A DNA stretch of 64,000 bases from assembly GCA_910589415.1 (NCBI GenBank), contig CAJUUM010000031.1, positions 744,001-808,000 on the forward strand, written 5' to 3'. Below, in pieces: positions 1-32,316 of the stretch. Each line of letters starts with the position of its first letter. Position 1 is the stretch's first letter. Source of the DNA: Malachius bipustulatus. Taxonomy: Eukaryota > Arthropoda > Insecta > Coleoptera > Melyridae. The notes beneath the pieces are model-generated. The model was not told the origin of the DNA. It saw only the letters and a list, made by a program, of their open reading frames with translations, and ran no database searches. The translations under genes and the position numbers were made by a program.

Positions 1-3000
1 CGGTGGGTTCGGCTTGCGCCATAGGATGCAACCCCAGGCAGCTAAAACGCATGCCAACAACTGAGTGCAGTGCCTCCCGATGTGCGTGAAGGTAGGAAAG
101 GCCTACTATCCAAAGTTTAACAAAAAGATGAACGACATATCGTAAAACAATACGTCATTCATTGATTTCATGCTGTGAGTCAGGGGTGGAAATTGTAGAC
201 ACGTGTTTCGTCCTAATTGGGACTCTTCAGTACAATGTATCTTGCTAACACACAGCACAACCTTAGTCACTTAATAGTGAGAAAAATGATGAAAATGAAT
301 GAAAAATAAAAATAGCACGGTGGGTTCGGCTTGCGCCATAGGATGCAACCCCAGGCAGCTAAAACGCATGCCAACAACTGAGTGCAGTGCCTCCCGATGT
401 GCGTGAAGGTAGGAAAGGCCTACTATCCAAAGTTTAACAAAAAGATGAACGACATATCGTAAAACAATACGTCATTCATTGATTTCATGCTGTGAGTCAG
501 GGGTGGAAATTGTAGACACGTGTTTCGTCCTAATTGGGACTCTTCAGTACAATGTATCTTGCTAACACACAGCACAACCTTAGTCACTTAATAGTGAGAA
601 AAATGATGAAAATGAATGAAAAATAAAAATAGCACGGTGGGTTCGGCTTGCGCCATAGGATGCAACCCCAGGCAGCTAAAACGCATGCCAACAACTGAGT
701 GCAGTGCCTCCCGATGTGCGTGAAGGTAGGAAAGGCCTACTATCCAAAGTTTAACAAAAAGATGAACGACATATCGTAAAACAATACGTCATTCATTGAT
801 TTCATGCTGTGAGTCAGGGGTGGAAATTGTAGACACGTGTTTCGTCCTAATTGGGACTCTTCAGTACAATGTATCTTGCTAACACACAGCACAACCTTAG
901 TCACTTAATAGTGAGAAAAATGATGAAAATGAATGAAAAATAAAAATAGCACGGTGGGTTCGGCTTGCGCCATAGGATGCAACCCCAGGCAGCTAAAACG
1001 CATGCCAACAACTGAGTGCAGTGCCTCCCGATGTGCGTGAAGGTAGGAAAGGCCTACTATCCAAAGTTTAACAAAAAGATGAACGACATATCGTAAAACA
1101 ATACGTCATTCATTGATTTCATGCTGTGAGTCAGGGGTGGAAATTGTAGACACGTGTTTCGTCCTAATTGGGACTCTTCAGTACAATGTATCTTGCTAAC
1201 ACACAGCACAACCTTAGTCACTTAATAGTGAGAAAAATGATGAAAATGAATGAAAAATAAAAATAGCACGGTGGGTTCGGCTTGCGCCATAGGATGCAAC
1301 CCCAGGCAGCTAAAACGCATGCCAACAACTGAGTGCAGTGCCTCCCGATGTGCGTGAAGGTAGGAAAGGCCTACTATCCAAAGTTTAACAAAAAGATGAA
1401 CGACATATCGTAAAACAATACGTCATTCATTGATTTCATGCTGTGAGTCAGGGGTGGAAATTGTAGACACGTGTTTCGTCCTAATTGGGACTCTTCAGTA
1501 CAATGTATCTTGCTAACACACAGCACAACCTTAGTCACTTAATAGTGAGAAAAATGATGAAAATGAATGAAAAATAAAAATAGCACGGTGGGTTCGGCTT
1601 GCGCCATAGGATGCAACCCCAGGCAGCTAAAACGCATGCCAACAACTGAGTGCAGTGCCTCCCGATGTGCGTGAAGGTAGGAAAGGCCTACTATCCAAAG
1701 TTTAACAAAAAGATGAACGACATATCGTAAAACAATACGTCATTCATTGATTTCATGCTGTGAGTCAGGGGTGGAAATTGTAGACACGTGTTTCGTCCTA
1801 ATTGGGACTCTTCAGTACAATGTATCTTGCTAACACACAGCACAACCTTAGTCACTTAATAGTGAGAAAAATGATGAAAATGAATGAAAAATAAAAATAG
1901 CACGGTGGGTTCGGCTTGCGCCATAGGATGCAACCCCAGGCAGCTAAAACGCATGCCAACAACTGAGTGCAGTGCCTCCCGATGTGCGTGAAGGTAGGAA
2001 AGGCCTACTATCCAAAGTTTAACAAAAAGATGAACGACATATCGTAAAACAATACGTCATTCATTGATTTCATGCTGTGAGTCAGGGGTGGAAATTGTAG
2101 ACACGTGTTTCGTCCTAATTGGGACTCTTCAGTACAATGTATCTTGCTAACACACAGCACAACCTTAGTCACTTAATAGTGAGAAAAATGATGAAAATGA
2201 ATGAAAAATAAAAATAGCACGGTGGGTTCGGCTTGCGCCATAGGATGCAACCCCAGGCAGCTAAAACGCATGCCAACAACTGAGTGCAGTGCCTCCCGAT
2301 GTGCGTGAAGGTAGGAAAGGCCTACTATCCAAAGTTTAACAAAAAGATGAACGACATATCGTAAAACAATACGTCATTCATTGATTTCATGCTGTGAGTC
2401 AGGGGTGGAAATTGTAGACACGTGTTTCGTCCTAATTGGGACTCTTCAGTACAATGTATCTTGCTAACACACAGCACAACCTTAGTCACTTAATAGTGAG
2501 AAAAATGATGAAAATGAATGAAAAATAAAAATAGCACGGTGGGTTCGGCTTGCGCCATAGGATGCAACCCCAGGCAGCTAAAACGCATGCCAACAACTGA
2601 GTGCAGTGCCTCCCGATGTGCGTGAAGGTAGGAAAGGCCTACTATCCAAAGTTTAACAAAAAGATGAACGACATATCGTAAAACAATACGTCATTCATTG
2701 ATTTCATGCTGTGAGTCAGGGGTGGAAATTGTAGACACGTGTTTCGTCCTAATTGGGACTCTTCAGTACAATGTATCTTGCTAACACACAGCACAACCTT
2801 AGTCACTTAATAGTGAGAAAAATGATGAAAATGAATGAAAAATAAAAATAGCACGGTGGGTTCGGCTTGCGCCATAGGATGCAACCCCAGGCAGCTAAAA
2901 CGCATGCCAACAACTGAGTGCAGTGCCTCCCGATGTGCGTGAAGGTAGGAAAGGCCTACTATCCAAAGTTTAACAAAAAGATGAACGACATATCGTAAAA

Positions 3001-6000
3001 CAATACGTCATTCATTGATTTCATGCTGTGAGTCAGGGGTGGAAATTGTAGACACGTGTTTCGTCCTAATTGGGACTCTTCAGTACAATGTATCTTGCTA
3101 ACACACAGCACAACCTTAGTCACTTAATAGTGAGAAAAATGATGAAAATGAATGAAAAATAAAAATAGCACGGTGGGTTCGGCTTGCGCCATAGGATGCA
3201 ACCCCAGGCAGCTAAAACGCATGCCAACAACTGAGTGCAGTGCCTCCCGATGTGCGTGAAGGTAGGAAAGGCCTACTATCCAAAGTTTAACAAAAAGATG
3301 AACGACATATCGTAAAACAATACGTCATTCATTGATTTCATGCTGTGAGTCAGGGGTGGAAATTGTAGACACGTGTTTCGTCCTAATTGGGACTCTTCAG
3401 TACAATGTATCTTGCTAACACACAGCACAACCTTAGTCACTTAATAGTGAGAAAAATGATGAAAATGAATGAAAAATAAAAATAGCACGGTGGGTTCGGC
3501 TTGCGCCATAGGATGCAACCCCAGGCAGCTAAAACGCATGCCAACAACTGAGTGCAGTGCCTCCCGATGTGCGTGAAGGTAGGAAAGGCCTACTATCCAA
3601 AGTTTAACAAAAAGATGAACGACATATCGTAAAACAATACGTCATTCATTGATTTCATGCTGTGAGTCAGGGGTGGAAATTGTAGACACGTGTTTCGTCC
3701 TAATTGGGACTCTTCAGTACAATGTATCTTGCTAACACACAGCACAACCTTAGTCACTTAATAGTGAGAAAAATGATGAAAATGAATGAAAAATAAAAAT
3801 AGCACGGTGGGTTCGGCTTGCGCCATAGGATGCAACCCCAGGCAGCTAAAACGCATGCCAACAACTGAGTGCAGTGCCTCCCGATGTGCGTGAAGGTAGG
3901 AAAGGCCTACTATCCAAAGTTTAACAAAAAGATGAACGACATATCGTAAAACAATACGTCATTCATTGATTTCATGCTGTGAGTCAGGGGTGGAAATTGT
4001 AGACACGTGTTTCGTCCTAATTGGGACTCTTCAGTACAATGTATCTTGCTAACACACAGCACAACCTTAGTCACTTAATAGTGAGAAAAATGATGAAAAT
4101 GAATGAAAAATAAAAATAGCACGGTGGGTTCGGCTTGCGCCATAGGATGCAACCCCAGGCAGCTAAAACGCATGCCAACAACTGAGTGCAGTGCCTCCCG
4201 ATGTGCGTGAAGGTAGGAAAGGCCTACTATCCAAAGTTTAACAAAAAGATGAACGACATATCGTAAAACAATACGTCATTCATTGATTTCATGCTGTGAG
4301 TCAGGGGTGGAAATTGTAGACACGTGTTTCGTCCTAATTGGGACTCTTCAGTACAATGTATCTTGCTAACACACAGCACAACCTTAGTCACTTAATAGTG
4401 AGAAAAATGATGAAAATGAATGAAAAATAAAAATAGCACGGTGGGTTCGGCTTGCGCCATAGGATGCAACCCCAGGCAGCTAAAACGCATGCCAACAACT
4501 GAGTGCAGTGCCTCCCGATGTGCGTGAAGGTAGGAAAGGCCTACTATCCAAAGTTTAACAAAAAGATGAACGACATATCGTAAAACAATACGTCATTCAT
4601 TGATTTCATGCTGTGAGTCAGGGGTGGAAATTGTAGACACGTGTTTCGTCCTAATTGGGACTCTTCAGTACAATGTATCTTGCTAACACACAGCACAACC
4701 TTAGTCACTTAATAGTGAGAAAAATGATGAAAATGAATGAAAAATAAAAATAGCACGGTGGGTTCGGCTTGCGCCATAGGATGCAACCCCAGGCAGCTAA
4801 AACGCATGCCAACAACTGAGTGCAGTGCCTCCCGATGTGCGTGAAGGTAGGAAAGGCCTACTATCCAAAGTTTAACAAAAAGATGAACGACATATCGTAA
4901 AACAATACGTCATTCATTGATTTCATGCTGTGAGTCAGGGGTGGAAATTGTAGACACGTGTTTCGTCCTAATTGGGACTCTTCAGTACAATGTATCTTGC
5001 TAACACACAGCACAACCTTAGTCACTTAATAGTGAGAAAAATGATGAAAATGAATGAAAAATAAAAATAGCACGGTGGGTTCGGCTTGCGCCATAGGATG
5101 CAACCCCAGGCAGCTAAAACGCATGCCAACAACTGAGTGCAGTGCCTCCCGATGTGCGTGAAGGTAGGAAAGGCCTACTATCCAAAGTTTAACAAAAAGA
5201 TGAACGACATATCGTAAAACAATACGTCATTCATTGATTTCATGCTGTGAGTCAGGGGTGGAAATTGTAGACACGTGTTTCGTCCTAATTGGGACTCTTC
5301 AGTACAATGTATCTTGCTAACACACAGCACAACCTTAGTCACTTAATAGTGAGAAAAATGATGAAAATGAATGAAAAATAAAAATATCACGGTGGGTTCG
5401 GCTTGCGCCATAGGATGCAACCCCAGGCAGCTAAAACGCATGCCAACAACTGAGTGCAGTGCCTCCCGATGTGCGTGAAGGTAGGAAAGGCCTACTATCC
5501 AAAGTTTAACAAAAAGATGAACGACATATCGTAAAACAATACGTCATTCATTGATTTCATGCTGTGAGTCAGGGGTGGAAATTGTAGACACGTGTTTCGT
5601 CCTAATTGGGACTCTTCAGTACAATGTATCTTGCTAACACACAGCACAACCTTAGTCACTTAATAGTGAGAAAAATGATGAAAATGAATGAAAAATAAAA
5701 ATAGCACGGTGGGTTCGGCTTGCGCCATAGGATGCAACCCCAGGCAGCTAAAACGCATGCCAACAACTGAGTGCAGTGCCTCCCGATGTGCGTGAAGGTA
5801 GGAAAGGCCTACTATCCAAAGTTTAACAAAAAGATGAACGACATATCGTAAAACAATACGTCATTCATTGATTTCATGCTGTGAGTCAGGGGTGGAAATT
5901 GTAGACACGTGTTTCGTCCTAATTGGGACTCTTCAGTACAATGTATCTTGCTAACACACAGCACAACCTTAGTCACTTAATAGTGAGAAAAATGATGAAA

Positions 6001-7730
6001 ATGAATGAAAAATAAAAATAGCACGGTGGGTTCGGCTTGCGCCATAGGATGCAACCCCAGGCAGCTAAAACGCATGCCAACAACTGAGTGCAGTGCCTCC
6101 CGATGTGCGTGAAGGTAGGAAAGGCCTACTATCCAAAGTTTAACAAAAAGATGAACGACATATCGTAAAACAATACGTCATTCATTGATTTCATGCTGTG
6201 AGTCAGGGGTGGAAATTGTAGACACGTGTTTCGTCCTAATTGGGACTCTTCAGTACAATGTATCTTGCTAACACACAGCACAACCTTAGTCACTTAATAG
6301 TGAGAAAAATGATGAAAATGAATGAAAAATAAAAATAGCACGGTGGGTTCGGCTTGCGCCATAGGATGCAACCCCAGGCAGCTAAAACGCATGCCAACAA
6401 CTGAGTGCAGTGCCTCCCGATGTGCGTGAAGGTAGGAAAGGCCTACTATCCAAAGTTTAACAAAAAGATGAACGACATATCGTAAAACAATACGTCATTC
6501 ATTGATTTCATGCTGTGAGTCAGGGGTGGAAATTGTAGACACGTGTTTCGTCCTAATTGGGACTCTTCAGTACAATGTATCTTGCTAACACACAGCACAA
6601 CCTTAGTCACTTAATAGTGAGAAAAATGATGAAAATGAATGAAAAATAAAAATAGCACGGTGGGTTCGGCTTGCGCCATAGGATGCAACCCCAGGCAGCT
6701 AAAACGCATGCCAACAACTGAGTGCAGTGCCTCCCGATGTGCGTGAAGGTAGGAAAGGCCTACTATCCAAAGTTTAACAAAAAGATGAACGACATATCGT
6801 AAAACAATACGTCATTCATTGATTTCATGCTGTGAGTCAGGGGTGGAAATTGTAGACACGTGTTTCGTCCTAATTGGGACTCTTCAGTACAATGTATCTT
6901 GCTAACACACAGCACAACCTTAGTCACTTAATAGTGAGAAAAATGATGAAAATGAATGAAAAATAAAAATAGCACGGTGGGTTCGGCTTGCGCCATAGGA
7001 TGCAACCCCAGGCAGCTAAAACGCATGCCAACAACTGAGTGCAGTGCCTCCCGATGTGCGTGAAGGTAGGAAAGGCCTACTATCCAAAGTTTAACAAAAA
7101 GATGAACGACATATCGTAAAACAATACGTCATTCATTGATTTCATGCTGTGAGTCAGGGGTGGAAATTGTAGACACGTGTTTCGTCCTAATTGGGACTCT
7201 TCAGTACAATGTATCTTGCTAACACACAGCACAACCTTAGTCACTTAATAGTGAGAAAAATGATGAAAATGAATGAAAAATAAAAATAGCACGGTGGGTT
7301 CGGCTTGCGCCATAGGATGCAACCCCAGGCAGCTAAAACGCATGCCAACAACTGAGTGCAGTGCCTCCCGATGTGCGTGAAGGTAGGAAAGGCCTACTAT
7401 CCAAAGTTTAACAAAAAGATGAACGACATATCGTAAAACAATACGTCATTCATTGATTTCATGCTGTGAGTCAGGGGTGGAAATTGTAGACACGTGTTTC
7501 GTCCTAATTGGGACTCTTCAGTACAATGTATCTTGCTAACACACAGCACAACCTTAGTCACTTAATAGTGAGAAAAATGATGAAAATGAATGAAAAATAA
7601 AAATAGCACGGTGGGTTCGGCTTGCGCCATAGGATGCAACCCCAGGCAGCTAAAACGCATGCCAACAACTGAGTGCAGTGCCTCCCGATGTGCGTGAAGG
7701 TAGGAAAGGCCTACTATCCAAAGTTTAACA
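1..7730 (+). repeat. 317-bp hammerhead satellite, left block
   Basis: Head-to-tail tandem array with a period of exactly 317 bp; units begin at 1, 318, 635, 952 and so on. About 24.4 copies are present and the array runs off the left edge of the window. The copies look identical: the only difference I noticed is T instead of G at 5387. Each unit carries a hammerhead ribozyme on the minus strand. No open reading frame or promoter is obvious. Such uniformity over 7.7 kb means very recent amplification or strong homogenisation, or assembly collapse and expansion. The block ends at an 18-bp spacer, followed by the same satellite in the opposite orientation. Confidence 0.97.
172..256 (-). ncRNA. 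Type I hammerhead ribozyme (first of 24 minus-strand copies)
   Basis: On the minus strand the core reads CUGAAGA, a stem II of GUCC/GGAC with a CAAUUA loop, then GAAA, then ACACGUGU and the cleavage triplet GUC (plus-strand positions 198-200). Stem I is AUUGUA/UACAAU, extended past an internal loop by UUAG/CUGA and GCUGUG/CACAGC; such loops usually make the tertiary contact with loop II. Stem III, ACACGUGU, is its own complement, so it gives only 2 bp with a tetraloop in cis, or 8 bp between two units. Self-cleavage of a tandem transcript would release 317-nt RNAs. Identical copies recur every 317 bp up to 7463-7547. The structure is seen; activity and transcription are inferred. Confidence 0.93.
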
Positions 7731-7748
7731 AAAAGATGAACGACATAT
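7731..7748. other. 18-bp spacer at the satellite inversion point
   Basis: The left block reads into aaagtttaaca, ending at 7730, and the right block starts at 7749 with tgttaaacttt, its exact reverse complement. The 18 bases between are ordinary left-block unit sequence with no inverted partner. The array is therefore a palindrome with a short central loop, and all hammerheads point away from this centre. Confidence 0.9.
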
Positions 7749-9164
7749 TGTTAAACTTTGGATAGTAGGCCTTTCCTACCTTCACGCACATCGGGAGGCA
7801 CTGCACTCAGTTGTTGGCATGCGTTTTAGCTGCCTGGGGTTGCATCCTATGGCGCAAGCCGAACCCACCGTGCTATTTTTATTTTTCATTCATTTTCATC
7901 ATTTTTCTCACTATTAAGTGACTAAGGTTGTGCTGTGTGTTAGCAAGATACATTGTACTGAAGAGTCCCAATTAGGACGAAACACGTGTCTACAATTTCC
8001 ACCCCTGACTCACAGCATGAAATCAATGAATGACGTATTGTTTTACGATATGTCGTTCATCTTTTTGTTAAACTTTGGATAGTAGGCCTTTCCTACCTTC
8101 ACGCACATCGGGAGGCACTGCACTCAGTTGTTGGCATGCGTTTTAGCTGCCTGGGGTTGCATCCTATGGCGCAAGCCGAACCCACCGTGCTATTTTTATT
8201 TTTCATTCATTTTCATCATTTTTCTCACTATTAAGTGACTAAGGTTGTGCTGTGTGTTAGCAAGATACATTGTACTGAAGAGTCCCAATTAGGACGAAAC
8301 ACGTGTCTACAATTTCCACCCCTGACTCACAGCATGAAATCAATGAATGACGTATTGTTTTACGATATGTCGTTCATCTTTTTGTTAAACTTTGGATAGT
8401 AGGCCTTTCCTACCTTCACGCACATCGGGAGGCACTGCACTCAGTTGTTGGCATGCGTTTTAGCTGCCTGGGGTTGCATCCTATGGCGCAAGCCGAACCC
8501 ACCGTGCTATTTTTATTTTTCATTCATTTTCATCATTTTTCTCACTATTAAGTGACTAAGGTTGTGCTGTGTGTTAGCAAGATACATTGTACTGAAGAGT
8601 CCCAATTAGGACGAAACACGTGTCTACAATTTCCACCCCTGACTCACAGCATGAAATCAATGAATGACGTATTGTTTTACGATATGTCGTTCATCTTTTT
8701 GTTAAACTTTGGATAGTAGGCCTTTCCTACCTTCACGCACATCGGGAGGCACTGCACTCAGTTGTTGGCATGCGTTTTAGCTGCCTGGGGTTGCATCCTA
8801 TGGCGCAAGCCGAACCCACCGTGCTATTTTTATTTTTCATTCATTTTCATCATTTTTCTCACTATTAAGTGACTAAGGTTGTGCTGTGTGTTAGCAAGAT
8901 ACATTGTACTGAAGAGTCCCAATTAGGACGAAACACGTGTCTACAATTTCCACCCCTGACTCACAGCATGAAATCAATGAATGACGTATTGTTTTACGAT
9001 ATGTCGTTCATCTTTTTGTTAAACTTTGGATAGTAGGCCTTTCCTACCTTCACGCACATCGGGAGGCACTGCACTCAGTTGTTGGCATGCGTTTTAGCTG
9101 CCTGGGGTTGCATCCTATGGCGCAAGCCGAACCCACCGTGCTATTTTTATTTTTCATTCATTTT
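7749..9164 (-). repeat. 317-bp hammerhead satellite, inverted right block
   Basis: The same 317-bp unit in reverse complement, about 4.5 copies; the phase marker tgttaaac recurs at 7749, 8066, 8383, 8700 and 9017. The match to the satellite stops at about 9164 inside cattcatttt, after which the sequence is unrelated AT-rich DNA. The ribozymes here lie on the plus strand. The unit sequence looks identical to the left block. Confidence 0.96.
7932..8016 (+). ncRNA. Type I hammerhead ribozyme (first of 4 plus-strand copies)
   Basis: Same ribozyme as in the left block, now on the plus strand. The CUGAAGA core starts at 7958, the GAAA box follows the GUCC/GGAC stem II, the cleavage triplet GTC is at 7988-7990 and stem I is 7952-7957/7991-7996. 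The outer stem I pairing GCTGTG/CACAGC closes the domain. Further copies lie at 8249-8333, 8566-8650 and 8883-8967. Confidence 0.93.
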
Positions 9165-9560
9165 TAATACAATTATTGCCAGCACTTTTGCTGGAATTTT
9201 ATCTATAACTGTTTATAGGGCTTTATGATACACATCATTGTGGTTTTCTTTTTTGTCAGGCAGAGTTTATATATGAAACGAGAATAAATGAATATAAAAA
9301 TAATACATGACTTTCTATAGGTACTTATAATATTTATAATATAATAATACTTAACCATAATTATAATTAAATATAATTTTAAATAAATTTATATAAATAA
9401 TATTGATTGAAAAATATACATAAATAAACGTTAATATACTCAAAAAATAAACGACATCTTGCATAAAATAGTTGGGCGCCTGAGACACGCCCACCGCACA
9501 ACTTATGTAGGCCCGATTCACCGCACTACTTAAAGGTTAAAAACAATTTCTACTCAAACT
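9165..9560. other. AT-rich spacer, no gene seen
   Basis: AT-rich sequence between the satellite and the retroelement. It holds a small hairpin near 9181 (CCAGCACTTTTGCTGG) and a less AT-rich patch at 9470-9530. It could include the decayed leader or gag end of the following element, but I see no gag motif. Confidence 0.5.
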
Positions 9561-11867: not shown

Positions 11868-13321
11868 TGTTATAGTACCTATCAGAAAGGTTCTCAAGAC
11901 GACACTTGGTGAGGAGTTTAGACCAATAAATACGCTGCCAGCTATGGAAAAAATTCTGGAGAAAGTAATCTATAAACAGGTAGAAGTGCATGTCAGGGTG
12001 AATAATATATTGTCGAGTTTTCAATCAGGACTCAGGGAAAAATATAGTTGTGAAACTGCTTTACAATGTGTTATTACAGAGTGGAAGGAATGTAGAGATA
12101 GAGGAGAAACAGTGGTGGTAATATTTCTGGATATGAAGAGAGCCTTTGAAACAATTGATAGGGAAAGATTGATCGATAAACTGTGTGCATGTGGTATAAA
12201 AGGGGATTGTCTGAAATGGTTTCGAAGTTATATTGAAGGCAGAAAGCAAAAAGTTAGGTGGGGAAATAAAGAATCTACATTGAGAGAAATCAGGGTAGGC
12301 GTTCCACAGGGAAGTGTATTGGGGCCATTACTGTTTCCTTTATATATAAACGATATTGGGGATTGCTTGAAGCGGTGCAGGTATCATTGTTTTGCGGAGG
12401 ATACAGTTATTTATGTGGAGGGAAAAATGTGGAAGAATTAATTAATATTGTAAATAATGAGTTGTAGGATTTAAATGAATGGCTGTCCATGAATCAATTA
12501 AAGTTGAATGTAAAAAAAAAGCCATGTGTGTTGGCAATGAAATGGAATATAGACGTATAATAGAGAATCGAAGTGCAACAATTGCTATTGATGGTGAAGA
12601 AATTGAATTTGTAGAAGTAATTAAGTATTTGGGTATTATGGTAGATTATAAGCTGATTTTCGGAAAACATGTTGATTTTATTTGTAAGAAAAGAGGCAAG
12701 AGACTGGGTGTGTTAAGTAGATATAGTAGTTTACTGACAATGTATGTAAGACGTATCTTATATAATGGGGTAGTGCTGCCGATGTTTCTGTGTTGTGCGA
12801 CAATATTGTATTTGAGTAAGAAAGGTGATGTATATAGACTTGAAAAACTACAGAACAGAGGTATGAGACTGATATTGAGATGCAGTAGGTACACAAAAAT
12901 AAAGGATATGTTAGAATGTTTAGGTTGGTTGAGTATAAGTAATTTGTTAGAGTTTCAGACATTGATTTTTATTTACAGAATACATAGGGGCAAAATGCCA
13001 TCATATTTTGATGGATACAGAGTTTATTGTAGAGATTTGCATGGTTATGAAACACGTGGAAAAAATAATTTATATGTTAACACTGCAGACAAAAATATTG
13101 GTTATAATTCATTGTTTGTCAGGGGGTTTATTAGGTTTAACGAATTAAATGATAGTATAAAAAATGCGACTAGTTTAAGATTGTTTAAAATAAGACAGAA
13201 TATTATCGAGGCTGTTAATTGATACTGAATAGGGGGGGTATGATAAGATCGAAATTGTATTTAGATTGTAGCTATTGTAGCTAAATAAAGTTCTATTATT
13301 ATTATTATTATTATTATTATT
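11868..13321 (+). mobile_element. 5'-truncated LINE inserted into the errantivirus pol
   Basis: RT homology begins abruptly at about 11870 and the element ends in a TTA/TAT trinucleotide run (about 13292-13321), a tail type known in several LINE clades. It lies between the RNase H and integrase regions of the host retroelement in the same orientation. Target duplications are not clear. The RT organisation (GVPQGSVLGPLLF box, no RNase H domain) fits the Jockey/CR1/I group. Confidence 0.8.
11944..13222 (+). pseudogene. LINE reverse transcriptase, C-terminal half, inactivated
   Basis: Two frames, 11944-12441 and 12479-13222, cover the RT palm to the C-terminus. Visible motifs are FLDMKRAFETIDRERL, GVPQGSVLGPLLF and a degenerate catalytic box FAEDT in place of F/YADD. 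Upstream, in frame from 11872, is the VIVPIRK and EEFRPINTLPAMEKILE stretch typical of RT motif 1. A frameshift near 12440-12480 breaks the thumb region. The second frame holds KYLGIMVDYKL and the C-terminal region found after RT in such LINEs. The acidic change and the frameshift argue for a dead copy. Confidence 0.8.
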
Positions 13322-14817
13322 ACATTGATTTTGAGGAAGAACTAGACAAGCTAGCAAAGCAAAAGGTAACGACGAAATCAAAAGTTAAAATTTTGGCAGA
13401 CATACAGTTAGCACCTCCAACGAGAGACATACCACTAGTTCCCGAAAATCCCTTAATAGGATTTAGACCCAGACGTTAGTCAGCACACGCAAGCTGAAAA
13501 CGTAAATGCGACTTTACCAATCACAGAAAAACCTCTTAATTATTATAAAAAACAATTTATTTTCAACTTTGGACATTACGCATCCTCCCGAAAATATTCA
13601 CCTTTCGGTAAAGAGGGATATTTAATAAACATCACGCATCAGAATTTTGAAAATGAAATTGTAAACATATTACGAGAGAATATAAACCCATCGGTAATTA
13701 ATGAGATTTCTTCAAAGGATCCCAACCTTTACGAACACCTAGCCCAAATTATAAATACGAATTTCGATAATTCTGTTAAATTCGTCTATACCAATCTCGT
13801 ATTGAAAGACGTAACTGAAGCTGAAGGTCAAAGAACGGTATTAGCGCAGTGTCATAACACGGATCACCGTGGAGCCCAAGAACTTGCTAAGGTAATTAAT
13901 AAAAATTACTACTGGCCAAGTATGGCTTATGATGTCAAAACTATGTAGACAATTGTAATACGTGTCAGCAAGCCAAGTATGAAAGACACCCCGTGAAATA
14001 AAAACTGAAGCTAACACCCTCTTCTAAACAACCCTTTGAGCTTGTGTATATGGACATTTTCTCAGTTAGGAACAAAAAATATTTGACAGCGATTGACTCC
14101 TTCACTAGGTACGTCATGTGTGAGCCACTAGCTTCCTTAAACGCTGCGGACATTGCAGAGTCATATGTTAATATGTTTGCCAAGAGGAAAATGCCCAAAA
14201 CGTTGATAACCGATAACCAATTTGACGTAAATCTATTTAAATATTTTCTAAAAATACATGGAGTGACACATCACCTAATTACCCCGAAACATCCTAATAG
14301 CAATAGCCCCATAGAAAGAGCGCACGGTGCGCTAATCGAAATTATGAGAACCATAACAATCTCGCAGAATAAAATTTTGAATTTGAATCTTTTCGAAAAT
14401 GCAGTCGTAATTTATAACCGAACGATTCATAGTCAAACCAATTATAAACCAATCGAACTTTTATTTGGTCACATGGAAACCGATGACATACTTGATGTTT
14501 TCGATCAGACATTATATTATGAATATACCTGCGAACTATTTAGGAAAATTAAAGCTTTATACGAGAGCGTGCATAACCAGGAACTGGAAAGTAAGCAAAA
14601 ACGCTTGGAGTATGAAAATAAAAGACGCTCAGATTTTCAACAAATCAATCCGGAAAAAACAGTTTACCTCAAGGACGCGCAAAGATCGAAGGTAACACCT
14701 AACTATCGAGCACTCAATATTCATGAGGAAACAGAAGACAAAGTTATCACGGCGCAAGGTAAACAATACCATAAGCAAGAATTAAAGCCCGTCCGGAAGT
14801 CGCAACTGAAATACTAA
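13322..14817 (+). pseudogene. Errantivirus-like integrase, frameshifted
   Basis: Downstream of the LINE tail, pol resumes with a poorly readable connection region. Near 13840-13945 a zinc-binding segment (CHNTDHRGAQELAKVI then YYWPSM) is legible and breaks at a stop. The catalytic core is open at 14044-14817 (257 codons): first aspartate in VYMDIFSV, second in LITDNQFDV and glutamate in SNSPIERAHGAL, giving the DD35E pattern. The C-terminal part reads through to a normal stop at 14817, 19 bp before the env start. The core is intact but its N-terminal half is frameshifted. Confidence 0.8.
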
Positions 14818-29899: not shown

Positions 29900-29965
29900 A
29901 TATATATATATATCGTATATATATATATTCTAATATACCTATATATATATATATATATAATATAT
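29900..29965. repeat. (TA)n microsatellite
   Basis: Interrupted TA repeat abutting the left end of the hammerhead palindrome. A similar TA run (32298-32318) lies at the right end, so the palindrome may have inserted into or expanded such a tract. Confidence 0.85.
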
Positions 29966-30065
29966 TTGATGAATTTTATTGGGATTTAGGTTCTAATTTA
30001 AATTTGCCACTAAAGATTCTTTACAGAACAAATTAGAAAAACTTTCGTACAGCATGCGAGGAGAA

Positions 30066-30129
30066 GACTGAAGACATGGACGGTACCGTTTCGTCCTTAT
30101 TATGGACTCATCAGCATATCATATCAGTC
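30066..30129 (-). ncRNA. Hammerhead ribozyme, left arm
   Basis: On the minus strand: CUGAUGA, stem II GUCC/GGAC with a 7-nt loop, GAAA, then ACGGUACCGU and GUC cleavage triplet (plus positions 79-81 of the 30001 block, that is 30079-30081). Stem I is GAUAUG/CAUGUC, extended by GACUGA/UCAGUC across a small internal loop. Stem III is a 10-nt palindrome, giving 3 bp plus a GUAC loop in cis or 10 bp between two molecules. Core nucleotides are all canonical. Confidence 0.93.
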
Positions 30130-30989
30130 AGCTCTAAACCACACATGCTATACGAAATTTGGAAGTTCTATGTATTCTAACTGGTGTTGTCGTTTTGTAG
30201 TGGCTTTTAATTTCAAATGAGGGAGTAGGCAACCAGAGAAACGTGCGTGTCTTTTATATAGTATTATCCTCGCTATAACAGTAGAGTTGTCATGGATTTA
30301 TGAACGTTACACTACTAATGCAGAGGTTTCTATTAATTCAAGAACTACACATTGATTCCCATAAGTATATACCTACCCACATTCATTTTCAAGCTGAATT
30401 TTATTGAATTTTTACTGTGTATTTATAAATTAGATGTTATACACGAATTAAGATGTTATGGCACATTTTTTCACCCTGGCCTTTTTAGATTTATAATTAT
30501 TTTTATTGAACCACTTATTTGATTATATAATATATTTGATGAATTTTATTGGGATTTAGGTTCTAATTTAAATTTGCCACTAAAGATTCTTTACAGAACA
30601 AATTAGAAAAACTTTCGTACAGCATGCGTTTTTCTAATTTGTTCTGTAAAGAATCTTTAGTGGCAAATTTAAATTAGAACCTAAATCCCAATAAAATTCA
30701 TCAAATATATATATATTATATAATCAAATAAGTTGTTCAATAAAAATAATTATAAATCTAAAAAGGCCAGGGTGAAAAAATGTGCCATAACATCTTAATT
30801 CGTGTATAACATCTAATTTATAAATACACAGTAAAAATTCAATAAAATTCAGCTTGAAAATGAATGTGGGTAGGTATATACTTATGGGAATCAATGTGTA
30901 GTTCTTGAATTAATAGAAACCTCTGCATTAGTAGTGTAACGTTCATAAATCCATGACAACTCTACTGTTATAGCGAGGATAATACTATA

Positions 30990-31956
30990 CAGTGTGACAA
31001 GTTTCAAAGCAGAACATAGGCGAATAGCATGGGAAATCACATATTTGCAGTTTATTTCTCACCACTTTAATCTACAAGAATGGTAATGGGGTCTATCGAA
31101 AGAGAATTATTTTCTGAACATGTTGATACCAGACACTTAATAATTAACAGGTTCTTTATGATACCAGATTAACTTAAACTTTTCAAAATTAATAGTGTGT
31201 GCGCCCATGACATGCCTAATTCGAATAATTTTGTTACTGTCAAAAGAAACATTTTTAATCCACGTTTCCCTGAAAGGATTGTCAATGAGTAATATTAATG
31301 GCTATTCTAATGCGGGATGCGTGTTTATCGCCGTGGTACTATTAACTGGCCGGTCAGATCTACCGATTTAGCACCTTTCCTTGCTGTGACTATTTTTGGG
31401 ATCTTGGGGTTGCCCTAAAAACAAAATTTACAGAGCTAGACATTGCCGAATGTGCACTCGTTAATAACCAACAACTCGGACAAGTTCGAAGCGCAATTTA
31501 TAAAAGGGTGGGAATATTAATTTCAATATGAAGGACTATTTGAATATTTGTTGTAGTTATTGTTTTAGTTCAATTATATTACGTGTTTATTTTTCATAGT
31601 CAATTTTTGGTAAAACAAAATGATGGTGAATGAGGATTTTCGTCATTTTTTAATGATGTTCAATCAGAATTAAAATAAATTAAATAATTGAAAATATTTG
31701 CTTTGACAGTGAACAAGTTATCAGAATTTAGAATGTCATGGCTGCTCATCTTTTAATTTTGAAAATGTTTAAAATATTCTGTTATGATAGAAAACTGTTA
31801 ATTAGTAGCTATTTTGGTATCAACATGTTCAGAAAATAATTCTCTTTCGATAGATACCATTACCATTCTTGTAGGTAAAAGTGGTGAGAAATAAACTGCA
31901 AATATGTGATTTCCCATGCTATTCGCCTATGTACTGCTTTGAAACTTGTCACTCGG
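30990..31956. mobile_element. 967-bp TA-flanked TIR element in the right arm
   Basis: Begins CAGTGTGACAAG and ends with the complement of CCGAGTGACAAG; the inverted ends continue for about 80 bp. TA duplications are at 30988-30989 and 31957-31958. The uninterrupted site can be read in the left arm (around 30250), confirming exact TA insertion. No transposase frame, so it is non-autonomous. The termini and TA target fit the Tc1/mariner superfamily. A shorter relative is at 62596-62894. Confidence 0.88.
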
Positions 31957-32085
31957 TATAAAAGACACGCACGTTTCTCTGGTTGCCTACTCCCTCATTT
32001 GAAATTAAAGGCCACTACAAAACGACAACACCAGTTAGAATACATAGAACTTCCAAATTTCGTATAGCATGTGTGGTTTAGAGCT

Positions 32086-32149
32086 GACTGATATGATATG
32101 CTGATGAGTCCATAATAAGGACGAAACGGTACCGTCCATGTCTTCAGTC
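32086..32149 (+). ncRNA. Hammerhead ribozyme, right arm
   Basis: Same ribozyme as in the left arm, on the plus strand. CTGATGA is at 32101-32107, GAAA follows GGAC, and the cleavage GTC is at 32134-32136. Stem I pairs 32095-32100 with 32137-32142 and extends with 32086-32091/32144-32149. Core unchanged, so both arms could produce active RNA. The two ribozymes point away from the palindrome centre, as in the 317-bp satellite. Confidence 0.93.
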
Positions 32150-32316
32150 TTCTCCTCGCATGCTGTACGAAAGTTTTTCTAATTTGTTCTGTAAAGAATC
32201 TTTAGTGGCAAATTTAAATTAGAACCTAAATCCCAATAAAATTCATCAAATATATTATATAATCAAATAAGTGGTTCAATAAAAATAATTATAAATCTAT
32301 ATATATATATATATAT

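Follow-up and report, generated by a model that had tools for sequence, protein, structure and literature searches.

Insertion footprint of a hammerhead retrozyme in the beetle Malachius bipustulatus suggests that self-cutting RNAs are written into chromosomes from both target cut ends by a Penelope enzyme

What kind of sequence is a 9-kb array of near-identical 317-bp units that reverses its strand before it ends? Such an array opens the stretch analysed here (the window), 64,000 nucleotides of Malachius bipustulatus DNA (contig CAJUUM010000031.1, positions 744,001 to 808,000), and an initial annotation, made from the letters alone, had described it as a satellite encoding a hammerhead ribozyme in every full unit. 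We conclude that the array stems from a single, recent insertion of an animal retrozyme of non-autonomous type. The element is ordinary in kind, as an apparently new family in a class already known, the metazoan retrozymes lacking long terminal repeats (non-LTR retrozymes) described by Cervera and de la Pena in 2020 (PMC7229834), and the animal hammerhead repeats with circular RNA mentioned in the annotation are this published class. What is unusual, and new, is what the insertions reveal. Their footprint suggests that a Penelope enzyme writes such self-cutting RNAs into chromosomes, working from the two ends at which the target is cut. The strand change, which the annotation counted and left uninterpreted, follows a constant order where it recurs in the family, and no other part of the array is as informative.

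Two tandem repeats of period 317 compose the array within the window: 24.5 copies with 99% matches at positions 1-7756 and, in the opposite sense, 4.5 copies with 100% matches at 7748-9164. The units at the strand change aside, it is near-perfect, with a single one-base difference (G to T near 5387). The 28 ribozymes claimed in the annotation, one per full unit, were upheld by the covariance-model check that it had proposed: Rfam Hammerhead_1 (RF00163) matched the window 28 times, 24 on the minus and four on the plus strand, each at 53.5 bits (E 4e-11) against a gathering score of 34, so that all 28 complete units have a type I core and helices. The conserved core (CUGAAGA, GAAA, GUC), stem II, and a stem I that runs on past an internal loop in the predicted fold are likewise all present, as described. 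Units of 317 nt, the predicted monomers, are also backed by the sequence, from which the self-cleavage ascribed to them may be expected. In the predicted folds the hammerhead is not the lowest-energy state, and enforcing its pairs costs the extended region 2.1 kcal/mol relative to the optimum. A genome search with Rfam Hammerhead_3 (RF00008) gave no match, and is uninformative because none of 14 controls matched either. The unit (G+C 42.3%) has little coding capacity, its longest ATG-started open reading frame (ORF) reaching 35 amino acids on either strand of a four-unit concatemer; it therefore has no long ORF of the Penelope type, with reverse transcriptase (RT) and GIY-YIG domains. No LTR, primer-binding site or polypurine tract was noticed in the retrozyme, no search having been dedicated to them.

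The repeat of the annotation is real, but base 1 of the window truncates it. In 27 kb read leftward the array continues for 833 bases and contains three further minus-strand motifs, so that the complete insert spans 9,998 bp (C18:743168-753165) and holds 31 ribozymes, 27 minus and four plus. It is bounded on both sides by a 12-bp duplication, AATACAATTATT (Table 1). Because of this duplication, the fixed outer ends and the many dispersed copies described below, we read the array as an insertion, and the term satellite had to be given up. An ordinary satellite, grown in place by unequal crossing over and carrying its ribozyme incidentally, would account for near-identical tandem units, but is contradicted by the same three observations, and we find it barely credible. 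Beside the window's own target, a similarity, CATTCATTTT, was considered as a priming guide and was not used.

In a genome of 544,256,285 bases (52 contigs), the 317-bp unit had at least 385 matches. A first set of 17 loci comprised the window locus (W) and 16 other places, read as 17 regions, among the matches listed; positions in the RNA or unit are counted from the predicted cleavage site. Both unit orientations occur in 11 of these (W, C14a, C2a, C13a, C7b, C6b, C4a, C4c, C3a, C2b and C4d), always with minus units first and plus units second, which places the RNA 3' ends at the outer edges. Once the duplication is trimmed, the outer ends lie at 77-79 (site A) and 221-226 (site B) in 10 of the 11. 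The eleventh, C4d, initially lacked a duplication and ended at 244 on the right; the matches to the A-end pattern (below) then located the actual right end past an intervening 1.4 kb of other DNA, as an A end followed by AATAAATGTAAT, a sequence that also precedes the left arm; the B start of this locus is at about 218. Two further loci, C7a and C6a, seem one-armed, although 7-8 nt of an A arm sit between the duplication and the B arm. With these counted, 13 of 13 two-armed loci in the first set have an A end opposite a B end, RNA 3' ends pointing outward and a duplication of 12 bp. Of the other four, C14b is composite (below) and three are one-armed with a B end: C14c has a 14-bp repeat, and at C14d and C4b a duplication was looked for and not found.

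This rule held in further loci recovered by their A end, a pattern with 70 genome matches as against none for its reverse. Thirty matches have TTAT before the end, and could not be taken as separate insertions, since the 21 flanks read among them agree except for single bases; one insertion has thus been multiplied inside another repeat. It is represented by L053 (e.g. C13:34415868), two-armed with arms of 389 and 220 bp and the 12-bp duplication ACTATTATTATA. As an observation in its own right, this retrozyme and its flank have spread to many places, apparently within another mobile sequence. Of the other 40 matches, 11 were loci already known, and 17 of the remaining 29 were read. Ten were complete in view. 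Seven of them (L075, L080, L082, L085, L088, L089 and L090) are two-armed, all ending in B on the far side (225-233 in untrimmed alignment) and flanked by a 12-bp duplication; the other three (L081, L083 and L086) have an A arm only and repeats of 11-13 bp. Six more arrays extended past the region read, and L079 has both arms in view and its far end outside. Chosen by their A ends, the later loci test the rule by the far end only. A pattern search for B ends gave 30 matches against 27 for its reversed control, mostly chance, and only C4:2507907, next to an A end, was kept. Altogether, 21 of 21 two-armed insertions (13, L053 and seven) pair an A end (77-79) with a B end (about 218-233), have their RNA 3' ends facing outward and are flanked by a duplication of 12 bp. 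Assembly of long identical repeats is difficult, which may have distorted the number of copies in the window; that the strand change itself is an assembly artefact deserves scarcely any credence, given the same order with differing junctions at 21 insertions, several of them under 1.1 kb.

The targets themselves have a distinctive form. When the 21 sites are oriented by the A arm, they define a dyad-symmetric motif that is its own reverse complement, GNC-[12 bp]-GNC, with an A/T-rich 12-bp core: G at -3 in 16, C at -1 in 16, G at +13 in 15 and C at +15 in 16 of the 21. All four letters are present at nine sites and at least three at 14, compared with at least three in 1.6% of controls (20,000 32-mers drawn at random elsewhere in the window and having eight or more A/T in the core). 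Such a pattern would be expected of a dimeric endonuclease that cuts symmetrically with a 12-nt stagger.

A candidate source for such an enzyme is encoded nearby. Two kilobases left of the array, a Penelope-like ORF of 717 amino acids (L001:4034-6187; C18:739034-741187) has a GIY-YIG domain (25.5 bits, cutoff 22.6), the only domain listed by Pfam; its putative RT part is our reading of the sequence, outside that listing. With 62 genome matches listed, among them a 99% copy at C18:336986, Penelope elements thus share the genome with the retrozyme. A 70-nt repeat in the 5' part of the ORF also occurs in tandem 211-bp repeats at L001:2408-3040. One Penelope insertion (C6:1069613-1078400), with three ORFs ordered minus, minus, plus, could be read completely. 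Its ends are alike up to CTTGTTTCATTTATC, where the left arm stops, the right arm being 33-34 nt longer, and it is flanked by a 12-bp duplication, TAAAAATCTATT, with GCC on either side. It therefore matches the retrozymes in orientation, two alternative ends, duplication length and GNC, and the Penelope-type footprint of inverted ends, one longer by a tail, with a target duplication, is found in this element and in all 21 two-armed retrozyme insertions.

It could be argued that another RT, for example that of a LINE (long interspersed nuclear element), moves the retrozyme and that its likeness to Penelope is coincidence. LINE-type RTs do occur in the window, as shown by an RVT_1 fragment beside the array (11944-12441, 82.8 bits). 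LINE insertion is not known to produce a pair of fixed internal starts, inverted ends offset as if by a tail, or a symmetric cut of 12 bp, whereas one Penelope insertion in this very genome, that on C6, has them all. The Nematostella repeats, with 15-bp duplications, have been compared with LINE insertion (PMC4918200), but we regard a LINE or other RT as highly improbable here. An integrase-like ORF at 14044-14817, just under the rve cutoff (31.1 vs 32.6), occurs in addition to the RVT_1 fragment, and the surroundings of the array are by these signs rich in mobile elements.

A second hammerhead element extends the comparison. At C14b (C14:38995985-39000831; L051, L035) a composite insertion is flanked by the 12-bp duplication ACAATTACATCA. 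Its arms are built of a 461-bp unit, which carries a hammerhead-like motif of its own (32.6 bits, cutoff 34), and they start near unit positions 226 and 190. Its left arm runs from the 461-bp unit into 2.8 units of a 315-bp element, entered exactly at site A, and back into the 461-bp unit. The alternation means that both sequences were read within one insertion, and reverse transcription seems to have switched from the 461-bp to the 315-bp retrozyme and back. At its start sites the 461-bp unit is also similar to the 3' ends of two Penelope elements (E 7e-5 and 2e-4). All three can pair UAUACUCA with UGAGUAUA or UAUACCCA with UGGGUAUA, with one compensatory change; the 461-bp unit and the C6 end were folded and the third end was read by eye. 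Start B falls within the loop, and start A on the 3' side of the stem, in both the 461-bp unit and the C6 element. An exact 11-mer, CCGAACCCACC, common to the 317-bp unit (186-196) and the 461-bp unit (115-125) outside the hammerhead was too weak to link them (P 0.037 in Markov shuffles). A third hammerhead element, with a unit of about 570 bp and again a minus arm followed by a plus arm, lies in the window at 29954-32299, with motifs at 30073-30120 (minus) and 32095-32142 (plus) of 28.1 bits, below the cutoff of 34. Its ends differ by some 40 nt, an (AT)n tract around it conceals any duplication, and it is broken near 30990-31956 by an element bounded by terminal inverted repeats.

The footprint is best explained, and we think probably, by two-ended target-primed reverse transcription of the ribozyme RNA by a Penelope enzyme. 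Transcripts of an array would be cut by their hammerheads into RNAs of 314-317 nt, which a host ligase may close into circles. To judge by the footprint, a Penelope-like protein, probably a dimer, would cut both strands 12 bp apart at GNC-N12-GNC, and both cut 3' ends would serve as primers. Reverse transcription would then start at site A from one end and at site B from the other, each copy circling the RNA repeatedly (27 and 4.4 times in the window insertion), so that the arrays grow inward and the RNA 3' ends come to face outward; joining of the inner ends and filling of the gap would leave the 12-bp duplication.

The composition of the arms bears on what was copied. Among 183 complete units at 16 loci, lengths of 314, 315 and 317 bp (and one of 321) and 17 types were distinguished. 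The type of the window occurs in both of its arms and nowhere else in the 16-locus set, and the same is true of C14a and of the 314-bp type of C4d; at all three loci having a private main type, then, it is present in both arms, which suggests that both were copied from the same template. That template might instead have been a linear multimeric transcript of an existing array, used by the same Penelope mechanism with no circle. In vitro a Penelope protein used uncleaved RNA and the ribozyme was dispensable (PMC11167929), arms of up to 27 units could derive from a long transcript, and unit types are mixed at C7a, C2a and C6b. However, the ribozyme should cut such transcripts, the types mixed at C7a and C2a differ solely in a T-tract at 211-214, which suits slippage, and published animal retrozymes accumulate as circles (PMC7229834); we accordingly hold a linear template to be unlikely, while worth keeping in view.

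How the second arm arose is addressed by the inner junctions. A first cDNA folding back to prime itself, one arm being copied from the other, has been preferred for Penelope elements (PMC3846280), and would give junctions at which the arms end at nearly the same RNA position. Of 22 two-armed loci whose inner ends could be read, six have them no more than 4 nt apart (C14a, L053, L080, L082, L088 and L089; 0.6 expected), five of them among nine later loci, and at these six the RNA positions of the shorter arm are contained in those of the longer, save for at most one. Yet inner ends are at least 30 nt apart in 15 of the 22, and a copied arm would end anywhere, whereas 21 of 21 end at the second fixed start beside the 12-bp duplication. 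Two enzymes running off one broken RNA would give near-palindromes of the same kind, and would explain both the coincident junctions and the fixed outer ends, the latter of which fold-back does not. We therefore consider self-priming improbable.

Several observations weigh against two-ended synthesis by a Penelope enzyme. Free joining of inner ends does not predict the six near-coincident junctions; six 315/317 insertions are one-armed (C14c, C14d, C4b, L081, L083 and L086); and two sites, L075 and L089, carry at most one of the four motif letters. The match to Penelope depends on one fully read insertion, that on C6. Of 21 Penelope tail ends listed, 11 continue into the element and 10 are terminal, and by eye three of the 10 (C6 included) have GNC at about the right distance and seven do not. 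When the 317-bp unit was compared with the Penelope region no similarity was found, the 461-bp unit alone resembling it, nor was the conserved start-site stem of the 461-bp unit and the two Penelope 3' ends found in the 317-bp unit. The published Penelope experiments saw the same start sites on both strands and had no need of ribozyme cleavage in vitro (PMC11167929). Finally, 8 of the first 12 loci had arms matched in length to within 1.5-fold (shuffling gave P about 0.001; the Spearman coefficient, 0.34, was not significant), and this match was not repeated, with 1 of 8 later loci within 1.5-fold; equal arm length was dropped as a mark of simultaneous synthesis.

These findings bear on which enzyme moves animal retrozymes and on how Penelope elements complete insertion, the later steps of which have been called unvalidated (PMC11167929). 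The insertions supply a footprint that can be tested: they point to a target motif, a stagger of 12 bp and a pair of start positions, and the genome itself contains a candidate helper family. One phenomenon may underlie both the Penelope tail and the change of strand within hammerhead arrays. That animal retrozymes generally are inserted by Penelope dimers, through symmetric cutting at GNC-N12-GNC and two-ended, target-primed, rolling-circle reverse transcription of one RNA circle from two dedicated start sites, one for each DNA strand, with switching between different circles, is a more tentative proposition, to which we give somewhat less than even credence. If true, it would account as well for Penelope elements having inverted arms and a tail that is optional, and inverted hammerhead arrays would preserve in the genome a reaction that has yet to be observed in full in vitro.

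Table 1. Coordinates of the retrozyme insertion in the window and of its parts
Feature	Position in window	Strand	Remarks
Left (A) arm, 317-bp retrozyme units	1..7756 + 833 bases outside window (L001:8168-9000)	-	27.1 units, from RNA position 79 (site A)
First of 24 minus-strand type I hammerhead motifs	192..236, every 317 bp to 7483-7527	-	Hammerhead_1 alignment; predicted cleavage between 198 and 197
Inner arm junction	7748..7766, change at 7756/7757		Minus-arm RNA position 50 joins plus-arm position 84
Right (B) arm	7757..9164	+	4.4 units, from RNA position 223 (site B)
First of 4 plus-strand type I hammerhead motifs	7952..7996, every 317 bp to 8903-8947	+	Hammerhead_1 match; predicted cleavage after 7990
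Extra T between B end and target duplication	9165..9165		Probably untemplated
Right copy of 12-bp duplication AATACAATTATT	9166..9177		Left copy L001:8156-8167, outside window
GCC, right half of GNC-N12-GNC motif	9178..9180		Left half GTC at L001:8153-8155

Among known systems, the metazoan non-LTR retrozymes (PMC7229834) share with this family the type I hammerhead, tandem units of about 170-400 bp (here 314, 315 and 317 bp), a low G+C content (below 45-50%), target duplications of more than 4 bp (here 12 bp at 21 of 21 two-armed insertions) and the presence of Penelope elements in the same genome. Circular retrozyme RNAs were shown there in coral, mussel and axolotl, tandem cDNA copied from circles was proposed, and Penelope elements were named a strong candidate. 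The present family differs in its two arrays with outward RNA 3' ends, two fixed starts, 12-bp duplication and symmetric motif; neither paired start sites nor a target motif for retrozymes was found in the texts and listings searched, all of open-licence literature. Plant LTR retrozymes (PMC4918200) are likewise non-autonomous, with hammerheads and a life cycle through circular RNA, such as we propose here, but have type III hammerheads, LTRs, 4-bp duplications and a proposed Gypsy-type helper. In the Dolichopoda cave crickets, pDo500 (PMC2837043) is also an insect tandem repeat with a hammerhead, described as satellite DNA. The closest parallels in mode of insertion are with Penelope-like elements (PMC11167929, PMC3846280), which have inverted head-to-head ends with a short tail on one of them (31 bp in PMC3846280), start reverse transcription internally and favour A/T-rich targets. 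One such protein has been shown to cleave A/T-rich DNA on both strands, to extend both and to begin internally at two adjacent sites (PMC11167929); the retrozyme footprint suggests cutting and extension of both strands here too. The retrozyme departs from these elements in having no RT or endonuclease gene, in its duplication of 12 bp, compared with 8-10 bp published for rotifer Penelope, and in its start sites, which are about 144 nt apart in the 317-bp unit and 30-40 nt apart in Penelope-like elements.

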